Position numbers and translations under genes: made by a program. A model generated the notes under the pieces. It saw nothing but the letters and a program-made list of their open reading frames with translations. It ran no database searches and was not told where the DNA came from. Positions 57,645-64,000 of a DNA stretch of 64,000 bases are shown piece by piece (within the stretch, counting starts at the first letter, position 1; every line of letters starts with the position of its first letter). Location of the stretch: contig DASXUJ010000127.1 in assembly GCA_036504895.1 (NCBI GenBank), positions 1 to 64,000 on the forward strand, read 5' to 3'. The stretch comes from Syntrophorhabdaceae bacterium. GTDB lineage: Bacteria > Desulfobacterota > Syntrophorhabdia > Syntrophorhabdales > Syntrophorhabdaceae.

Positions 57645-58973
57645 TTAACTGCCTCGCGATTGCCCTATTGCCCATCCCGAATAACGTATTTTTGCCTTAA
57701 CGTGAAGGGGCCTCGCGGCCAGGGCCTGTCGGTATGCGTCCGCCACTGCCGCGGCAAAGGCCCGGCTGTTTATCTCCTCGTCTACTTCCGTTACCACAAT
57801 GCGACGGTCGAGGCTCTTTTTCAGAGTCTCTATGAATGCAGTATCACTCTCCGGGTCGTGGAGCGCGCCGCCTTTCACACTCAGCGCGGAAAATCCCTTT
57901 CCGGGAATTACGAATTTCACCATTTCCTTGTACTTGTATTTGTCGAGTTTATGCGCGACGGCAATGGCGATGAGCTCCATCTCCTCCGGGCTCGTCCGTG
58001 CCTGTACCCTTACCGAATCCTGAAGGAAAAGCTTTCTCTCCTGAAGCCTGCGCGATACCCAGAGGAGGTCCCCCTTATCTTTTCTCTCGAAGGGGCCGCA
58101 ACTTATCATGTCGAAGCCGCAGGGGGAAAGGACATAGGGGATGGGGAGGTCCGCGGCCCCGTCCAGACGGTCCGGACCCGTAGCCCTGTTCCCCCCGAGA
58201 AGGTATTCGCCAAAGCCCGCGGGCACGAGATCGATAAAACCTTCGAAAAAACCCTGTTTTACGAAATCGACGGCTGCCCTGTCACCCAGGCCCTGGGCAT
58301 GAAAGGAGACCACGTCATACTCGCCCTCCAGGATCTCCCGGACATAGTGGGCCCCTTCATCGCAAAAATCGAATTCCGTGATAGCCACTGAGGGCCTGCC
58401 GCTCGCAGGGAGGACCCCGCCCGATTCGACCATACCCGAGATGGCATTGGCCCCGTTCAAGGCCAGAGTCCTGACGAGGGGATTCATGCCCACCGTATCG
58501 ACCACCGTGTTCATGACCGTGATATCCCTGAGCCCCAGGTGCTCGGCAATCCAATTTGCATATGCAGGCATGGCGACGACGCTCGAAATGAGTAATTTCG
58601 GGACTCCGAAGGGCAGCACGTTCATGGCGGTAAGGGAAAGAAAGGTCCCGGTCATGCCTGCAATGGCAATAACACCCTTGAGATCGCCCGATTTATGAAG
58701 GGCGAGGAGTTTTTGGGTGAGACCCTTTGCCATGACGGCAATGGCCTTGTCCCTCTCGGTAGCCATCATCCCCCTCACCTCTTCCACCGTCCCGCCCACC
58801 GGTTCGAGTATCTCCCGGCAGGTCACATCCGGCGCGAGGGAGGGCACGATCCCCCCTATCCCCACGCTGATATCGATAAGAAGGGTCTTATGCCCCCGCT
58901 TCTCGATCTGCCGCTTCACGATCGCAAGGACCCCTTCCCTCTCATCCAGCATCCCCATAATCACCACCGCCAT
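57645..58973 (-). CDS. Tm-1-like ATP-binding protein (UPF0261 family)
   Basis: 442 aa. The N-terminal half shows the Tm-1-like Rossmann pattern (LLIDISVGIGG, GVIAIAGMTGT, LLISSVVAMPAYANWIAEHLG) and the C-terminal half the UPF0261 domain (DFCDEGAHYVREIL, VSFHAQGLGDRAAVDFVK, GNRATGPDRLDGAADL, VLSPCGFDMISCGP). The family name comes from tomato Tm-1; the bacterial reaction is unproven. It follows the Ppc/UbiD gene run on the same strand, separated by a mosaic repeat, so a role in aromatic metabolism is possible but not shown. Confidence 0.82.
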   Translation of the reverse strand: MAVVIMGMLDEREGVLAIVKRQIEKRGHKTLLIDISVGIGGIVPSLAPDVTCREILEPVGGTVEEVRGMMATERDKAIAVMAKGLTQKLLALHKSGDLKGVIAIAGMTGTFLSLTAMNVLPFGVPKLLISSVVAMPAYANWIAEHLGLRDITVMNTVVDTVGMNPLVRTLALNGANAISGMVESGGVLPASGRPSVAITEFDFCDEGAHYVREILEGEYDVVSFHAQGLGDRAAVDFVKQGFFEGFIDLVPAGFGEYLLGGNRATGPDRLDGAADLPIPYVLSPCGFDMISCGPFERKDKGDLLWVSRRLQERKLFLQDSVRVQARTSPEEMELIAIAVAHKLDKYKYKEMVKFVIPGKGFSALSVKGGALHDPESDTAFIETLKKSLDRRIVVTEVDEEINSRAFAAAVADAYRQALAARPLHVKAKIRYSGWAIGQSRGS

Positions 58974-59193: not shown

Positions 59194-59619
59194 TTAATCT
59201 AAGGCCGGTCTCACCACCCCCACGATCTTGTGTGTAAGATCTTCACACAACCTCCTGATCGTTTCGATGCCGCCTTCGGTGAGATTATCCCAGTGGATGC
59301 CTGCCACCACTACCGTATTTCGCCCGAGTATCCTGGTGAGGTCCTCGGACAGGGCTTTGGCGACCACATCCTCCTTATGGCCTACATAAGTGTAGACGGA
59401 GCTCGTGGCTGAGATCTTTTCGGGGTCCCTGAGGCTCGGCCTCACCTGCCCCATGCCTATTGCGCCTATGTGGGGCCTTGTCCCGCCGTAAAGGATGACG
59501 AGACAGTCAACTCCCAGTTCGTAGACGAGGGCAATGACCCGAAGGTCACCCGCGGCTGCGGATAGCTCGTGGAGCCGGACCTCGACCGGTTCTGTTCCGC
59601 CATCATCATGGGCCGTCAT
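59194..59619 (-). CDS. LpdD-like small protein of the UbiD cluster
   Basis: 141 aa. VRLHELSAAAGDLRVIALVYELGVDCLVILYG, TRPHIGAIGMGQVRPS and TVVVAGIHWDNLTEGGIETI (quoted in pieces: LRVIALVYELGVDC, RPHIGAIGMGQ, VAGIHWDNL) resemble the small D protein of gallate/hydroxyarylic decarboxylase operons, recently described as a prenyl-FMN chaperone. I rely on memory of that family. It is last in the run ubiD-ubiX-ribK-this gene, 6 bp after ribK. If correct it would help load the cofactor on the UbiD enzymes. Confidence 0.6.
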   Translation of the reverse strand: MTAHDDGGTEPVEVRLHELSAAAGDLRVIALVYELGVDCLVILYGGTRPHIGAIGMGQVRPSLRDPEKISATSSVYTYVGHKEDVVAKALSEDLTRILGRNTVVVAGIHWDNLTEGGIETIRRLCEDLTHKIVGVVRPALD

Positions 59620-59625
59620 CTTCTT

Positions 59626-60027
59626 TCATTCTCCCTTGTTCATAACCTGATTTATCTCCAGCTCCAAGGATACCATGTCGCCGTCGTTGATGTGAAGGGT
59701 CTCTTTCAGATGCACGGGCGCCACCACTTCGAGGAGCCGCCGGTCATAATTCTCCACGAGGGGGATGACGACCCCGCACTCGTATTTACCGTTGAGCATT
59801 CCCCTGACAAGGATTGCGTCGCAGAACCCCTCGGTCCTGTGGGCGAGCCTGATCGGCCCTTTTTCCTTCAGAACAGCCTGTATGTCCGGATCATCGAGGG
59901 TGATGTTGAGAGTGCCGGGAAAGGGGACGAACCGGAAGGCCTCGGTGAGGGCCTCGGCCACCCAGCCTATGGAGAGAAAGCCCTTGGATTCCCCCACGCC
60001 TTTTACGATCCTGCCCTCGATCCGCAT
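59626..60027 (-). CDS. ribK: CTP-dependent riboflavin kinase, archaeal type (DUF120)
   Basis: 133 aa. The archaeal RibK pattern is clear: IEGRIVKGVGESKGFLSIGW at the start, FRFVPFPGTLNITLDDPD at about 31-48 (the PFPGTLN strand), VVIPLVENYDRRLLEVVAPV around 86-105, and LHINDGDMVSLEL at 111-123. This enzyme makes FMN from riboflavin with CTP, and is not related to the usual bacterial RibF. Encoded right after ubiX, it would supply FMN for prenyl-FMN synthesis. That link is an inference from position. ATG 60027 has GGGGAT upstream. Confidence 0.85.
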   Translation of the reverse strand: MRIEGRIVKGVGESKGFLSIGWVAEALTEAFRFVPFPGTLNITLDDPDIQAVLKEKGPIRLAHRTEGFCDAILVRGMLNGKYECGVVIPLVENYDRRLLEVVAPVHLKETLHINDGDMVSLELEINQVMNKGE

Positions 60028-60037
60028 TTTATCCCCG

Positions 60038-60628
60038 TCACTTCTGGCTGTTAACTATCCTCATCTCTTCCGGGGTTCCCCACCTTCTGAAGAGTTTCCC
60101 GTCAATACAAAAGAGGTCGAGGGCTTTCCCTACGCTCTGGTCGATAAGGTCGTCTATTGTCTGGGGCATGTGGTAGAAGGCAGGGATCGGGGGCATGATC
60201 ACGCCGCCCATCCTCGTCACTTTCATCATGAGCTCGAGGTGACCCTCATGAAAAGGCGTCTCCCGCACCATGAGCACGAGCCTTCGTCTCTCCTTCAGGC
60301 TCACGTCGGCAGCACGGATGAGAAGGTTGTAATTAAAGGAGTTGGCAATAGCCGAAAGGGTCTTTATCGAGCAGGGGGCCACCACCATGCCGTCCATCTT
60401 AAAGGAGCCGCTCGCAATCGCCGCCCCCACGTCGTCAATGTCATAAATTCGTGATGCATACGGGGTAATATCGGCCATCGTGTAGTTCGTCTCGATCTGC
60501 ATGTTCTTCATACCCGACTGGGTAATCACGAGGTGGGTCTCCACCCCGCACTCACACAGGGCCCTGAGCATCCTCACCCCGTATACCACCCCTGTGGCGC
60601 CCGATATTCCCACCACAATCTTAGTCAT
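60038..60628 (-). CDS. ubiX: flavin prenyltransferase UbiX
   Basis: 196 aa. KIVVGISGATGVVYGVRMLR (3-22), VVAPCSIKTLSAIANSFNYNLLIRAADV around 82-110, RRLVLMVRETPFHEGHLELM, MPPIPAFYH and IDDLIDQSVGKALDLF follow UbiX/Pad1 closely. It attaches a dimethylallyl group to FMN to make prenyl-FMN, the cofactor of UbiD-type (de)carboxylases, two of which precede it in the cluster. ATG overlaps the ubiD stop by 4 bp. Confidence 0.95.
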   Translation of the reverse strand: MTKIVVGISGATGVVYGVRMLRALCECGVETHLVITQSGMKNMQIETNYTMADITPYASRIYDIDDVGAAIASGSFKMDGMVVAPCSIKTLSAIANSFNYNLLIRAADVSLKERRRLVLMVRETPFHEGHLELMMKVTRMGGVIMPPIPAFYHMPQTIDDLIDQSVGKALDLFCIDGKLFRRWGTPEEMRIVNSQK

Positions 60629-61962
60629 ACCGCACCTCCCATGGATTCCAATATCCCTTGAACCCTTTCCCTGTCCCCGGGTGAAACAAAGGCCCTCTCC
60701 TCAATATTCTTGCCCGCCGTGGTGGCATTTATTCCTATCTTTGTGACGCCGTACACCTCCTGCGCCGTAGGATCGATTGGTTGCCCCTGAAGAGGGCCGA
60801 GGACCATCATATCCTCGCCGGCCCTGCACCTCGTGATAACGGCCCATTCCACGTCTCTTAAGTCTTTCGGGTTCACGTCTTCATCCACTATCACCACCTT
60901 CTTTACCATAGGGAAAGAGAGGAGAAAGAGCATGAAGTTGCGCACTTTGAATTTTTCGCCCCTTCGGACGGTGACCACGAGGGAGGAGCCGAAGGTCTTC
61001 TCGATGAACGTGAGGTCGATGACAAATGGGAAAAGCCTCTTGGCGTGCTCTTCGATGTGGGCCCGGCTTACGAAGGTGAGGTACATGTCCGCTTCCGGGC
61101 TCGTGGGAAGGAGCGCATGATAGATCGGCTCCTTACGGAAAGAGAGCCTCTCTACAACTACGGTAGGCGTCTTTTCGAGAGACAGGTAATAGCCGCTTAT
61201 CTCACCGAGGGGTCCATCCTTTTGGCTTCGGCTCTCATCCACCCATCCCTCCAGCAGAAACTCCCCGCACGCGGGCACCTCTATGGAGGAATCGAAGGAG
61301 GGGATCACCTTCACGCCCGTGCCCTTCAACCCGCCGGCCGTCTCCAATTTATCACGGCCCGCCGAAGGTTTCAGGGCCATGGAGATAAAAAGCCCCGGGT
61401 CAACGCCGATGGTGATGCTCACCGGCATCTTCCCGCCGACGGCCAGGTACTTCTGGTGAATCGTAGTGAGGGGCGGGTTGAGGAGACTCACCCCCAGCCT
61501 GTTCCCTCCTCGGTATTCCATCCGGTGCACGCCCCGGCCGCACTCCCCTGTCTCCGGGTCGAGGGCCGAGACAATGGCGCTCGTGATGTAGGGCGCCGAA
61601 TCCAATTGATAATGCTTGAGGATGGGGAGCAAGTCGATGAGGTCCTTCCCCTCCATCCCGATAGTCTCAAGCTCCCTCTCCTCTACCCGTACCGTCTTTT
61701 CCGTCTTCTGAATATTCTTTGCGAAATAGTCGTAAGGGTTTTCGGAGCCGAAGATCTCGTTAAAAATGTCATGATCCGGCGCGATGTTCGCCGCGACGCG
61801 GCACTTGTAACCTTCCACTGTTTCGAACAAGAGGGCCTTCCGGGCCGGAGAGAGGCGCTCGACCAGCTCAGGGATATCATCCCTGCGGACCGTCTCCCTG
61901 ATGGTAAGGAGCCTGCCCGCCCCCTCCATCACCGTAAGGTAGTCCCTCAAAGAATCGATCAT
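60625..61962 (-). CDS. ubiD: UbiD-family (de)carboxylase
   Basis: 445 aa, slightly shorter than E. coli UbiD (497). NRLGVSLLNPPLTTIHQ, GWVDESRSQKDGPLGEISGYY (as DGPLGEISGYY, with the family's catalytic glutamate) and LTFIEKTFGSSLVVTVRRGE, and the C-terminal KIGINATTAGKN fit. It uses prenyl-FMN. It could be a second carboxylase subunit (PpcB-like) or an independent hydroxyarylic acid decarboxylase; its divergence from the 481-aa UbiD protein favours a distinct role. ATG 61962 is 1 bp after the ppcC stop. Confidence 0.9.
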   Translation of the reverse strand: MIDSLRDYLTVMEGAGRLLTIRETVRRDDIPELVERLSPARKALLFETVEGYKCRVAANIAPDHDIFNEIFGSENPYDYFAKNIQKTEKTVRVEERELETIGMEGKDLIDLLPILKHYQLDSAPYITSAIVSALDPETGECGRGVHRMEYRGGNRLGVSLLNPPLTTIHQKYLAVGGKMPVSITIGVDPGLFISMALKPSAGRDKLETAGGLKGTGVKVIPSFDSSIEVPACGEFLLEGWVDESRSQKDGPLGEISGYYLSLEKTPTVVVERLSFRKEPIYHALLPTSPEADMYLTFVSRAHIEEHAKRLFPFVIDLTFIEKTFGSSLVVTVRRGEKFKVRNFMLFLLSFPMVKKVVIVDEDVNPKDLRDVEWAVITRCRAGEDMMVLGPLQGQPIDPTAQEVYGVTKIGINATTAGKNIEERAFVSPGDRERVQGILESMGGAV

Positions 61963-61963
61963 C

Positions 61964-62218
61964 TCAGAGGCCCTTCGGTATGACGTTGAAGGTCTCGATC
62001 ACCTCTATGGAACAGGGTGTATCAACGAGCTGTCCCCTGCCCAGGCGCACCTGGAGCTTGTCCTTATATTTATCGGCGGTTTTCGATACCATGAAACGCG
62101 CGTAGGTGGAGCGGTATTTCCTCCTGCCGGGCGCGAGGTCCCGTATGACGCCGGTCAGCTCCACGTCTTCCTTCAGGTCTGCAAAATCGGTATTTATGTA
62201 GGTATCATATTCAGCCAT
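61964..62218 (-). CDS. ppcC: phenylphosphate carboxylase gamma-like subunit
   Basis: 84 aa. TDFADLKEDVELTGVIRDLA, APGRRKYRSTYARFMVS and the C-terminal DTPCSIEVIETFNVIPKGL match what I recall of the small gamma subunit of the anaerobic phenylphosphate carboxylase (about 10 kDa). In Thauera the enzyme has alpha, beta, gamma and delta subunits. It lies between two UbiD genes with GGAGG before the ATG, 9 bp after the 481-aa UbiD gene. Confidence 0.7.
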   Translation of the reverse strand: MAEYDTYINTDFADLKEDVELTGVIRDLAPGRRKYRSTYARFMVSKTADKYKDKLQVRLGRGQLVDTPCSIEVIETFNVIPKGL

Positions 62219-62227
62219 GGCCGCCTC

Positions 62228-63673
62228 CTAGTCTTCGAACCCGTATTGGTGCCACTTGGAGATTACCTTCTCCTGTATGTGTTTCGGATATACATTGTCG
62301 AAAGAGACCTTTATGGGTATCATCGACGCGGGCCACTCGGGCGGGAAAAGGCAGTCGAAAACGACTTTTCCACCCCTGCCGTACTGCCGCTCCTCCGGCC
62401 AGGCATAGGGGTTGAGGGGTGTCCCCACTCCGTTCGGCGTCACTGTAATGCCTTTTGTCGGATGGCAGCGGGTGCACAGGGCATGGATGACCTCGTCCTT
62501 ATTGTAAATGTCCGTCTTGTCATCTACCACAATGCACATGTGGAACCAGGGCCCGAGTTTACTTCCGAAGACGATCTGTCCTATCTGGGTGGCGATATTC
62601 GCATAGCTCGGCTTTACCCCCACTACCACCAGGTGATGGGTCGATTCGGGCAACATGTAGACCCCTGTGATGGGGATACCCTGCTCCTTCAAAAGCTTAT
62701 CCATCTCGAGGGCAAGGGAGAAGGAGCGCAGGAGCTGTCCCTCATCCGTGGGCACGCCCATATTCGAGACCGACATAATGGGGTTCTTTCTCATGGTGAT
62801 CGCCTTCACGCGGTAGACGGTCCGTTTTTCCCTGGGGCTCGTCCTGTACCCCGTATACTCGCCGAAAGGCGCTTCCTCGATCATCACGTTCGGCACCACT
62901 ACGCCTTCGATGATGATCTCCGCGTGGGCCGGCACGTAGAGGTCGCTGGTCTCGCATTTGACCACCTCTACCGGCTCGCCCATGAGCATGCTCGTGAACT
63001 GGTCTTCAGGCAGAGACGTGGGCGCGCAGCTCGCGATTGCCGCGAGAGGATCGGGGCTTATGACGGTGGCGAAGGGCATGGGGATGTTCCGGGGCGCATA
63101 CTTGTTGTGGAACATCTTGCCCATATCGGAAAAGGGCAGGACCGGTCCCACCATGGTCTTCTCGTCGAAGAGCATCTGCCGGTACATACCCCAGTTGACA
63201 AAAGGCGTATCGAGGTCCTTGGCTACGACGAAGTGCCAGGTGCAGATGTACCTGCCCCCGTCGCCGTCATGGACCATGGGCGCGGGGAGGTTCATGATGT
63301 CCGCGTCGTCGCCCAAGAGCACCACCTCTTTGCAGGGCGCCTCCTTTTTATCGATGATCCTCGGCATGATAGGCGCCGTGGCCGCCCTTCTCAGGTATTC
63401 GGCCGCGATCCCCGGTACCGGCGTCTCGGGCTCGAGACCCATGGCGATGGCAAGCTTCCTGTAATTGGCGATGGGCGCGCCCAGAGCCTCGAATCCGGGG
63501 TAATCCTTTATATTCTTGAAATAGGGGGAAGGTCCTTTCCTCTCACAGATCCGGCGCACGATGGCGCCCAGCTCCATGTCCCAATCCACCTCTTCGTTCA
63601 CCACTACCGCGTCGCCCGTCTGCAGGAGTGCGTTTATGTATGCCCTGTTGTCTTTGTAGTATTTGTAAGCCAT
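62228..63673 (-). CDS. phenylphosphate carboxylase alpha/beta-type UbiD subunit
   Basis: 481 aa, the size of the PpcA/PpcB subunits (about 470-485). MAYKYYKDNRAYINALL, ICTWHFVVAKDLDTPFVNWG, LVVVGVKPSYANIATQ, and the active-site block EEAPFGEYTGYRTS with its catalytic glutamates. Start ATG 63673 has GGAGG about 10 nt upstream; the in-frame ATG 63682 is too near the site. The enzyme would carboxylate the phenol ring of phenylphosphate at C4 using prenyl-FMN. PpcA-like and PpcB-like proteins cannot be told apart without alignment. Confidence 0.88.
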   Translation of the reverse strand: MAYKYYKDNRAYINALLQTGDAVVVNEEVDWDMELGAIVRRICERKGPSPYFKNIKDYPGFEALGAPIANYRKLAIAMGLEPETPVPGIAAEYLRRAATAPIMPRIIDKKEAPCKEVVLLGDDADIMNLPAPMVHDGDGGRYICTWHFVVAKDLDTPFVNWGMYRQMLFDEKTMVGPVLPFSDMGKMFHNKYAPRNIPMPFATVISPDPLAAIASCAPTSLPEDQFTSMLMGEPVEVVKCETSDLYVPAHAEIIIEGVVVPNVMIEEAPFGEYTGYRTSPREKRTVYRVKAITMRKNPIMSVSNMGVPTDEGQLLRSFSLALEMDKLLKEQGIPITGVYMLPESTHHLVVVGVKPSYANIATQIGQIVFGSKLGPWFHMCIVVDDKTDIYNKDEVIHALCTRCHPTKGITVTPNGVGTPLNPYAWPEERQYGRGGKVVFDCLFPPEWPASMIPIKVSFDNVYPKHIQEKVISKWHQYGFED

Positions 63674-63692
63674 ATCAGACATTCCTCCCTTA

Positions 63693-64000
63693 TTATTTAA
63701 ATTTCTCCATGAAGGCGTCCCATCTGCCCTGGGCCTCGAGGATATACTGGGCAAGCTCCCTGACTACTCCCCTGCCTCCGCCTGCCTTCGTCACGTAATC
63801 GGCCACGGATCTCGCCTCGAGGGAGCCATCCGAGGGGGCCGCGGAAAAACCGGCACGCCCCATGATCCCGAGGTCGATCATCTCGTCTCCCACGTAACAG
63901 ATGTCCTCATCCTTGTAGCCCGACGCCTGCTCGAACTCATCGAGCCTCGCCATCTTCGCCCCCGAGCTCCAGAGCATCTCGGGAGGGATTCCGTAGATCT
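63693..64000 (-). CDS. ppcD: HAD-family phenylphosphate carboxylase delta-like subunit (5' end cut by window edge)
   Basis: About the last 102 residues only; the N-terminal nucleophile Asp motif lies beyond 64000. KdsC-like C-terminal HAD motifs are ICYVGDEMIDLGIMGRAGFS and YVTKAGGGRGVVRELAQYIL, followed by AQGRW. In Thauera the delta subunit PpcD is a HAD-type phosphatase that releases phosphate from phenylphosphate during carboxylation. Same strand and adjacent to the UbiD subunit, 19 bp apart. The open frame continues to the edge, so the start is unknown. Confidence 0.75.
   Translation of the reverse strand, partial: IYGIPPEMLWSSGAKMARLDEFEQASGYKDEDICYVGDEMIDLGIMGRAGFSAAPSDGSLEARSVADYVTKAGGGRGVVRELAQYILEAQGRWDAFMEKFK

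Follow-up and report, generated by a model that had tools for sequence, protein, structure and literature searches.

A DUF120 (RibK-family) gene beside UbiX in the phenylphosphate carboxylase cluster of a Syntrophorhabdaceae bacterium

UbiD enzymes need prenylated flavin mononucleotide (prFMN). An operon in which UbiD-family genes stand together with that of UbiX is carried by plasmid pAZKH of Azoarcus sp. KH32C, a bacterium of another phylum, with the gene order ppsA-ppsB-ppsC-ppcB-ppcD-ppcA-ppcC-ubiD-ubiX-DUF120-NUDIX. This order follows the RefSeq annotation. The operon is of the same type as that of Thauera aromatica K172, in which open reading frame (ORF) 9 reportedly lies between the UbiX-like ORF8 and the MutT-like ORF10. 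ORF9 may be the DUF120 gene; in that case the presence of the gene, and not its function, would have been published in 2000. This work deals with a DUF120 gene, called RibK here, found directly after UbiX in a Syntrophorhabdaceae bacterium, in a window of 64,000 nucleotides (positions 1-64000 of contig C127, DASXUJ010000127.1, which runs on to 78632). The operon is of a known type, and the recurrent cofactor gene in it has been overlooked.

Two further described proteins are relevant to the comparison. MJ0056 of Methanocaldococcus jannaschii (PDB 2vbu, 2vbv and 2p3m) is a riboflavin kinase dependent on cytidine triphosphate (CTP), and LpdD, which belongs to a gallate decarboxylase system, binds reduced prFMN and helps to activate apo-UbiD (PMC10865409). 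Related to the organism, Syntrophorhabdus is a known syntrophic phenol degrader, whose Pps-Ppc operons include UbiD- and UbiX-like genes (PMC5946492). There is also a mention of UbiD and UbiX sharing a polycistronic transcript with a NUDIX-like gene (PMC5852087).

The cluster studied here shares with the KH32C operon PpsA, PpsB, PpcB, PpcA, UbiD, UbiX and a DUF120 gene directly after UbiX, and it has PpcD-like and PpcC-like genes where KH32C has PpcD and PpcC. The KH32C operon differs in carrying a single PpcD, in including PpsC (CBS) and in having NUDIX as the gene that follows DUF120. In the present cluster there is a pair of PpcD-like genes, RibK is followed by an LpdD-like gene, and the Pps genes stand on a separate stretch; the two DUF120 proteins are only 32% identical. 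No match to PpsC or NUDIX was obtained by tblastn across the window and the remainder of the contig. In principle, the product of the KH32C NUDIX gene (L099:10401-10946) could provide UbiX with dimethylallyl phosphate.

The RibK protein and its neighbours

On the minus strand between positions 59194 and 64000 the genes follow one another, 5' to 3', as PpcD-like HAD phosphatase, PpcA, PpcC-like protein, a further UbiD, UbiX, RibK and LpdD-like protein (Table 1), with intergenic gaps of +13, +9, +1, -4, +10 and +6 base pairs (bp). The seven genes, their order and the single strand had been proposed in an earlier sequence-only reading and are borne out by profile matches; of the spacing proposed there (-4 to +19 bp) the lower bound holds, and the upper one is +13 from the coordinates, +19 being slightly off or dependent on the choice of start. 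These genes form the downstream portion of a larger cluster for phenylphosphate synthase and carboxylase, the enzymes of the anaerobic phenol pathway. It is assigned to the phenol type because a second PpcD-like gene, PpcB and PpsA/PpsB are found past the window edge. A benzene or naphthalene carboxylase is less likely, since PpcA passes the phenylphosphate equivalog and PpsA and PpsB share the contig.

The identity of RibK as a DUF120 protein is supported by the PF01982 score above its cut-off, a sequence match in the PDB, the predicted fold and a set of invariant residues. The sequence matches MJ0056 (2p3m) with an E-value of 1e-11 and an identity of about 27%. The AlphaFold model (mean predicted local distance difference test, pLDDT, 84.9) fits best to 2vbu, with an E-value of 1e-9 and template modelling (TM) scores of 0.79/0.80; the fold of 2vbv was also matched, and the top PDB matches of the model include MJ0056 with cytidine diphosphate (CDP) and MJ0056 with both CDP and flavin mononucleotide (FMN). 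It had been considered that the 133-aa (amino acid) protein might lack the RibK active-site residues. On the contrary, an alignment of 50 DUF120 domains, those of MJ0056 and Thermoplasma RbkR included, shows no variation at T39, N41, P89 and E100. In line with the MJ0056 structures, T39 and N41 are taken here to be putative Mg2+ ligands and E100 a putative part of the active site. The protein resembles MJ0056 in family, predicted fold and putative Mg2+-binding and catalytic residues, and differs from it in its low identity, in another nucleotide loop, in the operon context and in W22, V23 and C69 (47/50), which are common to most bacterial RibK and absent from both archaeal reference sequences. 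By homology, RibK would phosphorylate riboflavin with CTP as donor.

RibK is under purifying selection in relatives. The ratio of nonsynonymous to synonymous substitution rates (dN/dS) is 0.16 and 0.04 in two pairs of them, and that of UbiX in comparison is 0.085 and 0.059; RibK falls in the range of UbiX and the neighbouring subunits.

The LpdD-like assignment is upheld both by the PF21758 score and by the match to solved LpdD structures (PDB 8p4w/8pzh, E-value 1e-8). As in LpdD of gallate decarboxylase (PMC10865409), both metal-binding histidines are present, His35 and His61 corresponding to H50 and H81, whereas Asp63 is replaced by Glu83 and the gene is linked to a phenol carboxylase cluster; the comparison was made by sequence. 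By analogy, the protein may act as a chaperone of reduced prFMN (prFMNH2) for the UbiD subunits. The family is found in 36 of the 46 genomes of the order sample. In RibK-less relatives, among those that could be checked, the LpdD-like gene and UbiX share a strand and are 15-54 bp apart. In four RibK genomes the distance between the two is 6.6-6.9 kilobases (kb), with the LpdD-like gene towards the PpcB side of the cluster.

Occurrence of RibK with the phenol carboxylase genes

The occurrence of RibK was analysed in 395 genomes of the phylum and 46 of the order. Phylum-wide, 39 genomes have RibK, 24 have PpcC and 284 have UbiX above its cut-off. RibK is present in 22 of the 24 PpcC genomes and in 17 of the 371 others (Fisher p = 2e-23). 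These genome-level p values are inflated by relatedness, which is corrected in part by counting genera: 12 of 14 with PpcC against 11 of 232 (p = 1.4e-12). If only UbiX-bearing genomes are considered, the figures are 22/24 and 15/260 (p = 6e-21). Besides, 23 of the 46 RibK genes have UbiX on the same strand at a distance below 300 bp, although most of these genomes contain a single UbiX. The link of RibK with PpcC and UbiX is thus far beyond chance. RibK as a general partner of UbiX was ruled out by the same counts, as UbiX is in 284 of 395 genomes and RibK in 39. The earlier expectation that DUF120 genes would associate with ubiX in other genomes is consequently confirmed as to recurrence, Azoarcus included, but the tie is to the pps-ppc set and not to ubiX in general.

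Within the order RibK was found in 13 of 46 genomes, and all non-fused copies are directly downstream of UbiX (ten in ppc-type operons or fragments of them, one in G041). In six other PpcC genomes (L068, L076, L077, L082, L088 and L090) RibK is not next to UbiX; it stands beside PpsA/PpsB, either as a fusion with a HAD_2 phosphatase or in tandem with one. RibK-HAD_2 fusions or tandems also occur at L020, L026, L030, L072, L080, L086 and L089; a kinase and a phosphatase within one protein are an odd combination.

Outside its own phylum the sampling consisted of plasmids. Among 72,556 of them, KH32C provides the only bacterial RibK, the remaining matches being haloarchaeal, and also the only close PpcA. 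In public genome contigs the single RibK protein as query gave no match; an alignment of ten RibK sequences retrieved seven loci, either from its own group or labelled Deltaproteobacteria, and the public genomes of close relatives bear the names Syntrophorhabdus, Syntrophorhabdaceae and uncultured Deltaproteobacteria. RibK had no match in viral contigs. In the tree of RibK domains the UbiX-linked copies form at least two well-supported separate groups, plus single branches for Azoarcus and G237; its backbone is weak, so that a single origin of the UbiX link and several origins are not separable. The same pairing in relatives and in the unrelated Azoarcus suggests operons equipped with a supply line for the cofactor that they need.

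Flavin supply and the role of RibK

RibK is the sole DUF120 gene of the genome. The presence of a conventional RibF was one of the checks proposed in the sequence-only reading, and a bifunctional one (FAD_syn + Flavokinase) is encoded on another contig (C97:41398-41763). It is like RibK in that both families make FMN, and unlike it in belonging to PF01687, being dependent on adenosine triphosphate (ATP) by family, proceeding to flavin adenine dinucleotide (FAD) and lying outside the operon. RibK is therefore an addition, presumably a further FMN maker, and not a replacement. Replacement of a missing RibF was also ruled out in general, because a Flavokinase match is present in 39 of 44 RibK genomes, and in 31 of the 32 with a completeness of 90% or more and a contamination of 5% or less. 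As lumazine synthase is present together with RibF, riboflavin is available and basal FMN is covered. The UbiX of the operon is the only full UbiX above the family cut-off in the genome, and of four UbiD genes three are in this cluster and the fourth elsewhere. Because this single UbiX coexists with a UbiD outside the cluster, the earlier suggestion that the cofactor supply may be dedicated to the carboxylase needs care.

The explanation favoured here, with a probability of about 0.7, is that UbiX is provided with FMN on the spot by RibK and in turn provides the carboxylase with prFMN, perhaps with the help of the LpdD-like protein. It is based on the identities and synteny of the genes, on the conserved catalytic residues and predicted fold of RibK, on the purifying selection, on the presence of another, conventional FMN synthase, and on the recurrence of the arrangement in several families and in another phylum; from this we infer the kinase activity, the CTP donor, the local supply to UbiX and the chaperone role. 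RibK would convert riboflavin to FMN, with CTP as donor by homology, and UbiX would prenylate FMN to prFMN. The LpdD-like protein may then deliver prFMN in its reduced form to PpcA, PpcB and the further UbiD. With it, these UbiD-family subunits would carboxylate the phenolate that phenylphosphate releases. As bifunctional RibF already makes FMN, the basal flavin supply does not depend on RibK. RibK probably serves to raise FMN, and not FAD, at times when the operon is expressed and a large amount of carboxylase has to be loaded with cofactor. A kinase without FAD synthetase would raise FMN specifically.

Several results weigh against this explanation. The nucleotide loop reads GVGESK instead of GLGEGR of MJ0056, and it is still more divergent in other UbiX-linked members, so that the donor or the substrate could differ. 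RibK scores below the archaeal RibK equivalog cut-offs NF040694 and NF010762 (62 vs 168 and 63.9 vs 279), which places it in the PF01982 superfamily only and not in the archaeal equivalog. Some RibK genes (f2, f11, f44 and f51) stand at a long distance from UbiX and are either fused with a HAD phosphatase or next to one. G002 and G281 have PpcC and UbiX without RibK, which is therefore not essential. Finally, the position of the LpdD-like gene directly after RibK is found in this genome only, among those examined.

Three other explanations have been considered. The one that survives best, although unlikely, is that the DUF120 protein is not, or not mainly, a riboflavin kinase, and acts instead as a flavin or prFMN accessory (in maturation, binding or delivery for UbiX/UbiD, like LpdD or PhdC) or as a kinase of another flavin. 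UbiD operons do carry diverse accessory proteins (PMC10865409; PhdC, PMC13040415), RibF already supplies FMN, and both the drifted loop and the bacterial-specific W22, V23 and C69 would fit such a function. On the other hand, T39, N41 and E100, invariant in 50/50 domains, would be superfluous for a pure binding protein, and the predicted fold is the kinase fold.

It is less probable still that RibK supplies FMN to other enzymes that depend on it, in the pathway or elsewhere in the organism, and is near UbiX merely as a fellow flavin gene. RibK is indeed beside an FMN-dependent dehydrogenase (PF01070) and UbiX in G041 and G237, and near such a dehydrogenase in G079 and G173; nevertheless, it tracks PpcC and not UbiX or flavoproteins generally, and the present cluster showed no FMN_dh. 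Adjoining UbiX, RibK and PF01070 genes (L030:1196-6911, with UbiD too, and L081:3714-5863) represent a second type of RibK-UbiX locus. Least credible is a passenger gene of archaeal origin, acquired by horizontal transfer and without functional tie to the carboxylase: the family is best known from archaea, with DUF120 matches in archaea only among 14 control genomes, and just 13/46 genomes of the order have it, but the purifying selection, the separate well-supported lineages all tied to UbiX or Pps/Ppc and the same position in Azoarcus oppose this view, which the recurrence has already largely refuted.

Local FMN supply by RibK could also be part of something wider. It is possible, though doubtful, that phenol-carboxylase operons constitute a near-complete prFMN factory, with a distinct bacterial RibK subfamily working for UbiX, perhaps by direct hand-over, a phosphatase or hydrolase in some operons (the Azoarcus NUDIX, the RibK-fused HAD elsewhere) that could make dimethylallyl phosphate, which UbiX requires as well, and delivery by LpdD. 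If this were true, a flavin pathway would be dedicated to one enzyme system, beside the house-keeping RibF.

Features of the locus and significance

Table 1. Features of contig C127 in and beyond the window, with the match on which each assignment is based.
Feature	Position	Strand	Evidence
UPF0261 (Tm-1-like) protein, perhaps also part of the cluster, 220 bp downstream	57645..58973	-	PF06792 + PF23189
LpdD-like protein	59194..59619	-	PF21758 107 bits vs cut-off 27
RibK, DUF120 riboflavin kinase family, archaeal type, 133 aa	59626..60027	-	PF01982 88.6 bits vs cut-off 25
UbiX flavin prenyltransferase	60038..60628	-	TIGR00421 246.7 bits vs cut-off 108.9
Second UbiD-family protein	60625..61962	-	PF01977 143 bits; 214 bits to KH32C UbiD
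PpcC-like gamma subunit, 84 aa	61964..62218	-	PF09662 59.6 bits (cut-off 25); TIGR02725 58 vs equivalog cut-off 135.55
PpcA, phenylphosphate carboxylase alpha subunit, UbiD family, 483 aa	62228..63679	-	TIGR02723 688 bits vs cut-off 564.6; 59% identity to KH32C PpcA
PpcD-like HAD phosphatase	63693..64000, gene to 64223 past window edge	-	TIGR02726 72 bits on partial protein; full-length protein (176 aa) 110 bits to KH32C PpcD
Second PpcD-like HAD, beyond window	C127:64233-64790	-	109 or 110 bits to KH32C PpcD (two PpcD-like genes: 110 and 109)
PpcB, beyond window, same run	C127:64804-66219	-	61% identity to KH32C PpcB over 472 aa
LysR regulator, beyond window	at 66576	divergent	
PpsB, beyond window	about 68826-69908	-	tblastn with KH32C proteins; PpsA/PpsB 56% and 39% identity
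PpsA, beyond window	69956-71899	-	tblastn with KH32C proteins; PpsA/PpsB 56% and 39% identity

The second UbiD is the counterpart, in position and sequence, of the UbiD after ppcC in KH32C. The PpcD-like genes form a tandem pair in place of a single gene, as they do in relatives within the order and in the f10/f35 clusters. UPF0261 genes also adjoin UbiX/RibK clusters of other families (L073:6513-7802; L079:3402-4619; L087:7232-8533). A conserved protein of 106-123 aa with the motif IYxFAAxxGAxEGYVY precedes RibK-HAD in several genomes (family members at C127:74582-74902, equivalent to L098:10582-10902, L071:5159-5479, L072:3477-3812 and L020:6392-6763), and the two members checked had no Pfam match; in the genome of the window its gene (C127:74582-74902) adjoins a HAD gene, without RibK there. 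No Rfam family, riboswitches included, reached the gathering threshold in ten loci, the stretch upstream of the operon among them and the window outside the scan.

No description of a RibK-UbiX/UbiD link was found in the searchable open literature, the original Thauera operon papers being outside that search. RefSeq names the KH32C protein only as 'DUF120 domain-containing protein', and the present results give a possible function to this gene in a well-known operon type. Active holo-enzyme is hard to obtain for some UbiD enzymes (PMC10865409). A co-inherited, putative FMN kinase, statistically tied to the phenol-carboxylase set and present in two phyla, offers a testable reason why such carboxylases may resist reconstitution, and makes RibK a candidate gene for co-expression with them. 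From the point of view of the organism, it is an archaeal-type enzyme which bacteria have kept next to their own RibF.

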